Source: Flavobacterium aquaticum
GTDB lineage: Bacteria > Bacteroidota > Bacteroidia > Flavobacteriales > Flavobacteriaceae
Reading direction: 5' to 3'
Length of the DNA stretch: 64,000 nt
Assembly (NCBI RefSeq): GCF_003259835.1
Contig: NZ_QLMI01000002.1
Location: 62,001 to 126,000 of the forward strand
Made by a program: the position numbers and the translations under genes. Below the pieces are notes generated by a model. That model was not told the DNA's origin, searched no databases, and saw nothing but the letters and a program-made list of their open reading frames with translations. The first letter of the stretch is position 1. Each line of letters starts with the position of its first letter. Below are positions 50,794 through 55,685 of the stretch, piece after piece.

Positions 50794-50824
50794 AAAAAAG
50801 TCGCTATTTCTAGCGACTTTTTTT
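50794..50824. terminator. Bidirectional terminator between yihA and gldC
   Basis: AAAAAAGTCGCTA and TAGCGACTTTTTT form a 13-bp stem with a 4-nt loop. Its end overlaps the gldC stop codon region by 2 nt. Confidence 0.92.
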
Positions 50825-51149
50825 ATGCTTTTAAATCCATTTTTTCGGCGAAGTAATCACAAAAATCTCGCATGGTATCTGACATTTTCTCATCAGCAGT
50901 TGCGCGTTGAAATGTATCCGCCATTGCAACTAAAGTTTGATGAAAGAATTGTTTCATTTCGTCTACAGGCATATCTTTTGTCCATAAATCTATACGAAGG
51001 GTTTCTTTTGCTTTGCTATCCCAAACTGATAACAACATTGCTTTTGCTTCTTCTTGCTCTACGCCACCATCTTGTGCTGTCCATAATAATTTATCAGGAA
51101 CGTTATTTTCATCTAAACCTACGGTAATTTTTATATCTGATGTTTTCAT
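50823..51149 (-). CDS. gldC: Gliding motility protein GldC
   Basis: Small soluble protein of 108 aa without signal peptide or membrane helix. It matches GldC of F. johnsoniae: a SDIKITVGLDENNVPDKLLW start, a DGGVEQEEAKAMLLSVWD core and DFCDYFAEKMDLKA end. GldC helps efficient gliding, but its biochemical role is not known. It lies 2 nt after gldB and is co-transcribed with it. Confidence 0.94.
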   Translation of the reverse strand: MKTSDIKITVGLDENNVPDKLLWTAQDGGVEQEEAKAMLLSVWDSKAKETLRIDLWTKDMPVDEMKQFFHQTLVAMADTFQRATADEKMSDTMRDFCDYFAEKMDLKA

Positions 51150-51151
51150 AT

Positions 51152-52114
51152 TTATTGCTTCTTTGGTTTGTATTTTGAATTATCGAAGATGGTTTTAGCA
51201 TCCATTGCTAATAACTGTTCTAAAGTTATATCTTCGTTGTTTTCCATGTAGCTTCTTACGATTTGCCAGCCTAACCATTGCCCAACTCTTCCAGGAGTTT
51301 GATTGTCAATTTCAATATAAAATCTTGAAAACGGAGCTGGTTTAATAAATCGTAATTCATTCTTAGGATTGGAATCGAATAATAATTTATTTTCAACCAA
51401 ATTACTCCACATGTAATATTCATTTTCTTGACAGAATTTGATTTGCATATCGGTATAACCAATTTTATCAGCATCTGAATATTCTGGAATTAACTTATCT
51501 TTCATGTACAATTCTTTTCCATAATAAATCATAGCAGACAATAAAGTTCTATCTGTTGGCGAAGCGATTTTTCCGTAACAAAAACTAGTTACTAAATTTG
51601 GTAAAATTTGATTTCGCTCCATTTCTGGCTTTTTAAATTCTGGAAAATCCACGTAAAAACGGTGGTCTTTTCCTAAATAACAATCTAACGAAATTAATGC
51701 CAGCGTATCAGTATAAAAAACTCTTCCATCTGTATCTACCTCATTAATTAAAGTAATAACGCGAGGTGTTTTGTACTTTGGAAAATAATATTGTACATGC
51801 GCAAATAGCTTTTCTAAGTCGGTTTCAATTTTTCCTAATTCAGGATATTGCATTTGAACTTCACTGTAAAGCTCTTTCAACAATGGATCCTTTAATTTAT
51901 TAATTAATATTGAATCTGGAATATGCGATGGGAAAAAATAAGGATATTGTGCTTTTACTTTTTGTAAATCTTCAGGTTTTGAAGTCCAAAAAATTCTATC
52001 AAAACGTTCCACTTTAAATTCAATTGGAATTTTAGCTACTGCCTCTTCTACTTTACTCTCTTCTTTGCATGAAAATAGAGAAATTGCTACAAGGACAAAT
52101 AATAATTTCTTCAT
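51152..52114 (-). CDS. gldB: Gliding motility lipoprotein GldB
   Basis: Lipoprotein of 320 aa with signal peptide MKKLLFVLVAISLFSC and lipobox Cys16. In F. johnsoniae GldB is needed for gliding. The body shows the family segments FDRIFWTSKPEDLQ, VITLINEVDTDGRVFYTDT, ISLDCYLGKDHRFYV and RFYIEIDNQTPGRVGQWLGWQIVRSY. It resembles a degraded zinc-protease-like fold in annotations, but I see no HExxH. It is divergent from nadE, with a -7 element at 52157-52164. Confidence 0.95.
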   Translation of the reverse strand: MKKLLFVLVAISLFSCKEESKVEEAVAKIPIEFKVERFDRIFWTSKPEDLQKVKAQYPYFFPSHIPDSILINKLKDPLLKELYSEVQMQYPELGKIETDLEKLFAHVQYYFPKYKTPRVITLINEVDTDGRVFYTDTLALISLDCYLGKDHRFYVDFPEFKKPEMERNQILPNLVTSFCYGKIASPTDRTLLSAMIYYGKELYMKDKLIPEYSDADKIGYTDMQIKFCQENEYYMWSNLVENKLLFDSNPKNELRFIKPAPFSRFYIEIDNQTPGRVGQWLGWQIVRSYMENNEDITLEQLLAMDAKTIFDNSKYKPKKQ

Positions 52115-53082: not shown

Positions 53083-53712
53083 ATGATCAAAATAGGTATA
53101 GCAGACAGTTTACCTGTTGTAAGCCATGGATTACAGTCGTATTTTCATGGTAACAGCAGAATGGAAGTTATTGCATCGGCTAAAAACTTAGAATCTTTAC
53201 TTTCACTTTTAGAAGCAAAACGTTGTGACATTCTTATTCTCGATGTAGAATTAGATGGTTTGTCGAGCATTAGAGACATCAAAAGCTTGCTGAAAGATTT
53301 TCCTGAAACAAAAATTGTTTTGTTTACAAATGTTTCCGAACAAATGTATGCCCCAACAGCAATTAAAGCGGGAGTCTCAGCTTACGTTTCCAAAAAAAGT
53401 GATTTAAAAGATCTAGAGGCTACAATAACAAAAGTAACAGAAGGCAAAGTCATCTTTAGCGAAACTGTTAAGAAAAGCATTGAAATGCTTAGTAAAGGGA
53501 AAAAATCGGAGCGTTTGTTCAAGAAATTATCTACTAGAGAAATCGAAGTACTACGCTACCTTAACGACGGTAAGAAAAACAAAGAAGTTGCTCAAATTCT
53601 TGGTTTGGATGAAAAAACAATCAGTACGTACAAGTTGCGCTTGTTGGCAAAATTAAATGTTACCAACTTAGTAGACTTATTAAAAAAAGCAAAAGATTTA
53701 GATGTAATTTAA
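53083..53712 (+). CDS. Response regulator, NarL/LuxR type
   Basis: Protein of 209 aa with a receiver domain (1-120) and a LuxR-type HTH (about 145-205: LSTREIEVLRYLNDGKKNKE, LDEKTISTYKLRLLAKLNV). Phospho-acceptor Asp is in ILILDVELDG; Thr (LFTNVSE) and Lys (YVSKKSD) are in place. The N-terminal acidic pair is reduced to one residue (GIADSLPVV where DD is usual), so metal binding may be altered. No histidine kinase lies near. The gene ends overlapping the dnaG stop by 4 nt (convergent). Confidence 0.93.
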   Translation: MIKIGIADSLPVVSHGLQSYFHGNSRMEVIASAKNLESLLSLLEAKRCDILILDVELDGLSSIRDIKSLLKDFPETKIVLFTNVSEQMYAPTAIKAGVSAYVSKKSDLKDLEATITKVTEGKVIFSETVKKSIEMLSKGKKSERLFKKLSTREIEVLRYLNDGKKNKEVAQILGLDEKTISTYKLRLLAKLNVTNLVDLLKKAKDLDVI

Positions 53713-55685
53713 TTGTATCTTGATAAAACTCTACCCAAGTTTTTAGAAAAGATATGTGTTAACCCCAAATAAGCCATTACCATTTCCAGAGTTTCTGAGT
53801 TATCAGAGTCTTCATCGGTTGAAATTGAATTTTTCAAATCGTCGATAATGTTATTGACTAAATACCATCGCAATGTGATAATCGTCTCGGTTACGTATTG
53901 GCTTATCGTGGTTTCTTTTTGTTTTACATAGATTTGTTGTACTTCCCAATTGTGTAATACCTCACGTTCTTCGTTCATAAGAATCGTGGTGACTTCTTGC
54001 GCTAATTCCTCAGGCAATTGCATTAAGTATTTATCCAATTCAAAAACCTCATTTTCATTAAAATACGCAATTAAATGATTAAAAATTGCTTTAAAAATTG
54101 GGTTAGCTAATTCTACCTCATCTTCTTGTAAACTCAAATAAACACGTTGATATACTTTGTAATTATTTTGCTCTTTTACTTCAACCATTTCTCCATCTTC
54201 ATTTTGAGCTAAAATAGTATCCTCAAACTCAACTTCTTTGTCACCATACAACAACAAAATCTGAATGATTTTATGTTCCAATTCGTATTGAATATCTATT
54301 TTAGTTGTTGGCTGAGCAATATCGTTTCTTACAACTTCAAAAGCTTTTTGTTCCTCTTTGTATTGTTTATTTGCTTCCGATACATCTTTCTTAACTAATT
54401 GCGCTAAGGTATTAAAAAGCACATCTTCGGAAATATCCATGATTCGGGAACATTCCTTAATGTAAACTTCTCTTTTAATTCGGTCTGGAATTTTTGAAAT
54501 ACTGATAACCATATCTCGAATCAAATCGGCTTTTTTAATTGGATCATTCTTGGCTTCTTGCATCAATAAAGACGCTTTAAACTGAATGAAATCTTTGGCG
54601 TTATCTTCGAAATATTGCAACAAATCTTCATACGAAGTTTTTCTTGCAAAACTATCTGGGTCATCGCCATCAGGAAACGTACACACTTTTACGTTCATTC
54701 CAGCTTCCAAAATCAAATCGATTCCACGAATCGAAGCACGAAGTCCGGCAGCATCACCATCAAAAAGCACGGTAATATTTGGCGTTAAGCGATTAATTAA
54801 ACGAATTTGATCAGGCGTTAAAGCTGTTCCTGAAGAAGCCACAACGTTCTCAATACCCGCTTGATGCATTTGAATTACATCGGTATAACCTTCCACCAAA
54901 TAACAATTGTTTAGTTTGGCGATAGATTGCTTTGCATGGAAAATTCCGTACAAAACTTTACTCTTATGGTAAATATCACTTTCGGGCGAATTCAGGTATT
55001 TTGCAGCTTTTTTATCATTGGTCAAAATACGACCACCAAAACCCAAAACACGTCCGCTCATACTTTGAATTGGAAACATAACACGACCTTTGAATCGGTC
55101 GAATTGTTTGTCTTCCTTAACAATTGAGAGTCCGGTTTTGTCTAAATATTCTAATTTATATCCTTTTCCTAATGCTTCTTTTGTAAAAGCATCCCAAGAT
55201 TCTGGCGAATATCCTAATCCGAATTTTTTTATCGTATCAGATGTAAAACCACGTTCTTTAAAATACGATAGTCCGATAGCTTTTCCTTCTTCGGTTTCTA
55301 ATAAAGTGTGATGAAAATATTTCTGAGCAAATTCGGAAACCAAATACATACTTTCCTTTTCATTCGCTTGTGCTACATCTTCATCGGACTGAACCGTTTC
55401 TTCGATTTCGATATTGTATTTTACTGCTAAATATTTGATAGCTTCTGGATAAGTAAAATGTTCGTGTTCCATTAAAAACGTCACGGCATTTCCGCCTTTT
55501 CCAGAGGAAAAATCTTTCCAAATTTGTTTCACAGGCGACACCATAAACGAAGGCGATTTCTCGTTTACAAACGGAGACAATCCTTTCAAGTTACTTCCGG
55601 CGCGTTTGAGTTGTACAAAATCACCTATAACCTCCTCAACTCGGGCGGTTTCAAATACTTTTTCTATGGTGTCTTTTGATATCAA
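53709..55685 (-). CDS. dnaG: DNA primase DnaG with zinc ligands lost
   Basis: Replication primase (658 aa). The N-terminal domain follows the CHC2 fold (KGLSPFVNEKSPSF, VKQIWKDFSSGKGGNAV), but the four zinc ligands are Ser37, Val40, Asp58 and Ser61 in place of Cys, His, Cys, Cys. The RNA-polymerase part is intact: RFKGRVMFPI, the TOPRIM motifs LVEGYTDV and LFDGDAAGLRASIRG, then TFPDGDDPDSF. The C-terminal helicase-binding part is long and divergent. It keeps the primase fold, so it should be active. Convergent overlap with the response regulator. Confidence 0.96.
   Translation of the reverse strand: MISKDTIEKVFETARVEEVIGDFVQLKRAGSNLKGLSPFVNEKSPSFMVSPVKQIWKDFSSGKGGNAVTFLMEHEHFTYPEAIKYLAVKYNIEIEETVQSDEDVAQANEKESMYLVSEFAQKYFHHTLLETEEGKAIGLSYFKERGFTSDTIKKFGLGYSPESWDAFTKEALGKGYKLEYLDKTGLSIVKEDKQFDRFKGRVMFPIQSMSGRVLGFGGRILTNDKKAAKYLNSPESDIYHKSKVLYGIFHAKQSIAKLNNCYLVEGYTDVIQMHQAGIENVVASSGTALTPDQIRLINRLTPNITVLFDGDAAGLRASIRGIDLILEAGMNVKVCTFPDGDDPDSFARKTSYEDLLQYFEDNAKDFIQFKASLLMQEAKNDPIKKADLIRDMVISISKIPDRIKREVYIKECSRIMDISEDVLFNTLAQLVKKDVSEANKQYKEEQKAFEVVRNDIAQPTTKIDIQYELEHKIIQILLLYGDKEVEFEDTILAQNEDGEMVEVKEQNNYKVYQRVYLSLQEDEVELANPIFKAIFNHLIAYFNENEVFELDKYLMQLPEELAQEVTTILMNEEREVLHNWEVQQIYVKQKETTISQYVTETIITLRWYLVNNIIDDLKNSISTDEDSDNSETLEMVMAYLGLTHIFSKNLGRVLSRYN

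Follow-up and report, generated by a model that had tools for sequence, protein, structure and literature searches.

A conserved form of the DnaG primase N-terminal domain without zinc ligands in Flavobacterium aquaticum, with probably several origins across the phylum

The primase gene of Flavobacterium aquaticum that lies in the window (the whole stretch of 64,000 nucleotides analysed here) encodes a CHC2-type N-terminal domain in which every zinc ligand has been replaced. Judged from sequence comparison, the variant is genuine and conserved, a familiar enzyme domain that lacks the residues for binding zinc; it arose several times in the phylum, as a recurrent change rather than through a single old loss. 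We consider it probable that the domain still works and reads the template without zinc, a cluster of polar residues holding it together, and that this form had several origins and spread in part by intragenic exchange.

The dnaG gene forms a complete open reading frame of 658 amino acids on the minus strand (53709..55685; TTG start, TAA stop), at the position proposed by an initial annotation of this DNA, which had given no strand. Its product scored 422.3 bits against NCBIfam TIGR01391 (above the curated cut-off of 283.6) and 89 bits against Pfam Zn_ribbon_DnaG (cut-off 24.9), and these family scores leave no doubt that it is a DnaG-type bacterial primase. The zinc-less CHC2-type domain occupies residues 1–97 (55395..55685; PF01807 over residues 3–97) and is followed by the N-terminal part of the DNAG_N catalytic core (residues 124–252, 54930..55316; PF08275, 132.7 bits), the TOPRIM domain (residues 262–346, 54648..54902; PF13155, 71.6 bits, above cut-off) and a DnaB_bind region (residues 380–421, 54423..54548; PF10410, 32.6 bits against a cut-off of 20.6), all on the minus strand. 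The TOPRIM acidic residues E265, D269, D309 and D311, which we take to be catalytic, were invariant in 45 aligned rows, in agreement with the earlier statement that the TOPRIM core is intact. A convergent plus-strand reading frame (53083-53712), which looks like a LuxR-type response regulator, overlaps dnaG by four bases, 3' end to 3' end (53709-53712). Further away, two minus-strand reading frames within 50823-52114, presumably the gliding genes gldC and gldB, adjoin a nadE-like gene.

At the positions of the Cys-His-Cys-Cys ligands, the window DnaG carries Ser37, Val40, Asp58 and Ser61, encoded by TCT (55575..55577), GTA (55566..55568), GAT (55512..55514) and TCT (55503..55505), respectively, and a pairwise alignment placed these four residues opposite the C-H-C-C of the Aquifex primase (2au3). 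The claim that all four ligands are replaced thus holds for this protein on translation, codons and alignment; it does not extend to all of its zinc-less relatives, as will be seen below. Cysteine-to-serine changes are known to inactivate T7 primase. Compared with DnaGs that possess a CHC2 zinc ribbon (Bacillus stearothermophilus, 1d0q, and Aquifex, 2au3), the window DnaG has the same domain order, predicted N-terminal fold, catalytic core, TOPRIM residues and DnaB-binding region, but lacks the zinc ligands and has a Ser-[Asp/Cys]-Ser-[Ser/Thr] cluster instead.

When the 2.82-Mb genome (rated 100% complete) was searched with the DnaG-family profiles PF01807 and PF08275 at E ≤ 10, each profile matched once and the single DnaG found was the zinc-less one, so that a second, intact DnaG was ruled out at this sensitivity. 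Being the sole DnaG found and having an intact TOPRIM core, the product is most likely the cell's replicative primase, as had been suggested. Two other zinc proteins of the same genome, both acting in DNA metabolism, were examined: LigA keeps its zinc cysteines (402, 405, 420 and 426) and PriA keeps eight cysteines, and zinc loss of DnaG is therefore not common to these two. This bears on the possibility of whole-cell zinc sparing or adaptation to metal stress, by which many zinc proteins would have become zinc-free. Such a process would fit the recurrent loss of a zinc site from a protein that should be essential, but it is weakened by the intact LigA and PriA, and we regard it as improbable.

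In the window's own family (f1, taken to be Flavobacteriaceae), 296 of the 299 genomes and 201 of the 203 genera carried the zinc-less motif with Asp, which makes sequencing errors at the ligand codons very unlikely; at residue level, all 15 chromosomal dnaG rows of the family were zinc-less. The three genomes of f1 without the motif were G707, G773 and G828. The survey was then widened to named records and to DnaGs of genomes sampled at order, class and phylum level, after leaving out the duplicate of the window gene (L001) and L112-L115, L216-L221 and L225 (mobile, broken or partial, and one non-DnaG). Among 218 readable rows (220 were aligned, two being unreadable at the ligand sites), 117 had C-H-C-C and 101 had S-x-[D/C]-[S/T], proportions that are not frequencies, since low-scoring loci were picked on purpose and the sample was not random. 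No intermediates were seen, a partial set of two or three ligands being kept in 0/218 rows. A lone ligand did persist in some of the 101 zinc-less rows (Cys58 in 27, His40 in eight), and to this extent the replacement of all four is not general. Two low-scoring genomes (G475, G640) proved to have C-H-C-C with ambiguous bases, an apparent deletion in G366 was in fact a run of unknown bases, and in G056 and G153 (f18), whose completeness is rated at 99%, a search with PF01807 at E 0.001 found nothing. The dnaG of G179 (L216/L220) is split over two frames across the zinc domain, through either a frameshift or an assembly error.

For residue-level comparison, the rows were reduced to a set of 141, comprising 67 zinc-less and 74 zinc forms. 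Ser37, Lys57 and Phe59 were each found in 67/67 zinc-less rows; position 58 was always Asp (44) or Cys (23), position 61 always Ser (54) or Thr (13), and Ser60 (55506..55508) occurred in 64 rows, with Ala in the other three, against Gly in 68/74 of the zinc forms. Position 40, in contrast, varied freely. Zinc-less DnaGs also differ from zinc forms at Ala29 (55599..55601; Ala/Ser in 51/67 against Arg in 54/74) and at Lys34 (55584..55586; Lys/Arg in 58/67 against Ile/Leu/Val in 52/74). The columns that change most with zinc state (Arg29 to Ala/Ser, hydrophobic 34 to Lys/Arg, and Gly60 to Ser) all sit inside the domain, the best core column showing a frequency difference between states of only 0.33. 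The fixed character of Ser37, Asp/Cys58 and Ser/Thr61, together with the retention of His40 in a few rows, could be taken to mean that the Ser and Asp residues bind another metal, for instance through Asp58 and water. However, position 40 is free, position 58 may be either Asp or Cys, and neither Ser nor Thr generally coordinates zinc well; we therefore consider such a site quite improbable.

At equal core identity, the domain was conserved among zinc-less pairs at least as well as among zinc pairs in 6/6 bins (domain identity 0.588 vs 0.549 at core identity 0.4-0.5, and 0.678 vs 0.648 at 0.5-0.6), in a comparison that excluded the ligand columns and whose pairs are not independent. Random decay of the domain was rejected on this basis. 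An AlphaFold model built from 32 zinc-less sequences only reached pLDDT 93-96 over residues 11-90 and superposed on 1d0q with an rmsd of 1.1 Å over 92 columns, and a full-length predicted model agreed with it. The zinc-ribbon fold is thus present as a predicted fold, in line with the earlier proposal that the fold is maintained; since AlphaFold is prone to reproduce the fold of a family even where that fold depends on a metal, the model supports stability only weakly and says little about the need for metal.

These observations weigh on the alternative that the domain is vestigial, zinc binding and template reading having both been lost, with another protein or the core alone picking start sites. 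Metazoan TWINKLE, whose primase function has passed to another polymerase, offers a parallel: passages of PMC7231222 describe a degenerate primase half whose primase-type zinc domain has likewise lost most of its cysteines (three of the four conserved ones) and whose primase activity is gone, and TWINKLE structures appeared among the weaker fold matches. The window DnaG differs from TWINKLE in that its catalytic core is, by sequence, apparently intact and that no other DnaG was found in its genome. With the domain conserved at least as well as the zinc form and the TOPRIM residues invariant, we find a vestigial role very improbable and prefer the reading of a domain that still works.

The initial annotation had also suggested an old, clade-wide loss. 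The near-universal presence of the motif in the family bears out the clade-wide part, whereas a single old loss is contradicted by phylogeny and by mosaic genes. In a tree of the core (residues 105–425, domain excluded), neighbouring genera differed in zinc state; 184 rows, including the mobile primase L112, required at least 17 changes of state and the reduced set of 141 rows required 18, each being a count on one topology, as deep nodes were weakly supported and family code f61 was scattered over the core tree. When all zinc-less rows were constrained to a single origin, the log-likelihood of the core fell by 610 (p 5e-102), and one old loss was rejected on this basis. The domain without its motif columns (79 columns) gave 10 state changes and failed to reject one origin (log-likelihood 54 lower, p 0.09), a failure to reject with 79 columns that is no proof of one clade; the corresponding tree grouped 43 zinc-less rows from many families with a support of 79. 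A single random draw of 79 core columns, which served as a control, gave 21 changes and rejected one origin (136 lower, p 0.01). The history of the domain thus differs from that of the core, unless its residues are co-adapted; in so small a domain, co-adaptation could look like common descent. In both trees, several nested differences in zinc state had a support of 87-100, namely f3/g33 within f3, f8/g27 and g37 beside f8/g30, f101/g254 and g285 beside g276, as well as a gene of f65/g201 next to its zinc-type sister. Codon usage at positions 37/58/60/61 also differed between groups, with TCN-TGY-TCN-AGY/ACN in those resembling a Chloroherpetonaceae record, AGY-GAY/TGY-AGY-TCN in many others and AGC-GAT-AGC-AGC in f8, which argues for several origins.

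Several origins could have come about through point mutation only, each lineage losing zinc in place and one set of residues being tolerated, with no exchange of DNA. The variety of codon patterns favours this, as does the recurrence of co-varying residues, such as Glu73, in independent pairs. Mosaic scores, calculated with the motif columns removed, favour it as well for most genes: 60 of the 62 zinc-less rows tested stayed within the range of the controls, where the highest score was 7.4 among 52 rows of zinc forms only and 8.5 among 57 rows of zinc-less forms only. The two exceptions, L087 (f65/g201; score 12.0) and L167 (f3/g33; 11.7), look by sequence like zinc-type genes with a zinc-less patch or domain, each being one genome at residue level. 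The best mosaic segment fell in the N-terminal domain in 34/62 tested rows, against 14/52 and 9/57 in the two controls. L087 is the best case for exchange actually happening. Its residues 35-82 are 88-100% identical, per alignment window, to those of the zinc-less L067 of another family (f60), to which it is 40-68% identical over residues 1-34 and 13-60% over 101-410, while its flanks match the zinc-type sister L055 (80-95% over residues 1-34 and 67-88% over 101-410). Inside those flanks, L087 and L067 have in common Arg54 and Asp75 (each in 3/67 zinc-less rows), Gly76-Cys77, and identical codons (AGT GAT AGT TCG) at positions 37/58/60/61. Such sharing speaks against parallel mutation as the only process, as do the lack of intermediates and the grouping of zinc-less rows of many families by the domain without its motif columns; we judge purely parallel mutation unlikely, if with an appreciable chance of being right.

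The preferred explanation, a working zinc-free domain, can be set out as follows. The N-terminal domain of the window DnaG would bind no zinc and yet would still be folded and still be needed. The polar cluster Ser37-[Asp/Cys]58-Ser60-[Ser/Thr]61 would replace the zinc knuckle, accompanied close by through the gain of Lys34 and the loss of Arg29, and hydrogen bonds may hold the two loops that are otherwise held by zinc. The domain would in this way still present single-stranded template DNA to the polymerase domain. The initial annotation had likewise expected zinc binding to be lost, and template recognition may have changed with it, as it proposed. In at least two lineages, a dnaG of the zinc type seems to have acquired the zinc-less form through exchange of a patch or of the domain.

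No description of a zinc-less replicative DnaG was found among the matches listed in a literature search covering titles and abstract openings. Passages of PMC6163395 attribute sequence recognition to the zinc-binding domain and describe the precise role of zinc as unresolved. Related genera whose DnaGs differ in the zinc site, and the two genes with a seemingly swapped domain or part, provide near-matched natural pairs, and their comparison would directly test the role of zinc in template recognition. The zinc-less DnaG also qualifies the assumption, in annotation or in ideas for drugs, that the primase zinc site is universal in bacteria. A scan for the motif in one genome per species returned 10 matches, nine of them DnaG in records titled Bacteroides, Bacteroidetes, Flavobacteriales or Chloroherpetonaceae; its pattern was restricted to exact matches in GC-rich codons, and other phyla may therefore still carry the motif. 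The remaining match, from Myxococcales, was not a DnaG.

A further, tentative idea, which we hold to be possible though not probable, is that the zinc-less domain acts as an exchangeable recognition cassette. Transfers from one family's dnaG to another's, perhaps via phage primases, would have involved anything from a patch of ~140 bp to the whole domain, and a primase carrying the cassette would differ in some trait open to selection, for instance its choice of start sites or its resistance to a zinc-site inhibitor. Zinc-less primases, with the same type of motif as the window DnaG, were found in Duneviridae phages of Flavobacterium (laban6-1, 1H, FPSV-D15) and Cellulophaga (Ingeline_1), whose four records carry SVDS, STDS, STDS and SVCS; these putative primases are phage-encoded and larger (1064-1185 aa from CDS coordinates). 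C-H-C-C was read in the primases of three fecal records and of two phages of Porphyromonas gingivalis. The phage sample comprised 9 of 172 matching records, the four zinc-less ones coming from one phage family, and a match between the zinc state of the phage primases (L235-L237 and L242 vs L238 and L241) and that of their hosts' groups is offered as a lead. Three putative mobile primases (L113-L115) keep zinc-type residues in zinc-less hosts, which goes against a simple host-matching rule. Searches of plasmids gave 202 and 176 matching records, as record counts only. L112 (G174:C16:160900-164292), an apparently mobile, primase-like reading frame of 1089 aa with S-N-C-S in a zinc-less genome, is no exception to such a rule, and its length resembles that of the Cellulophaga phage Ingeline_1 primase (1086 aa).
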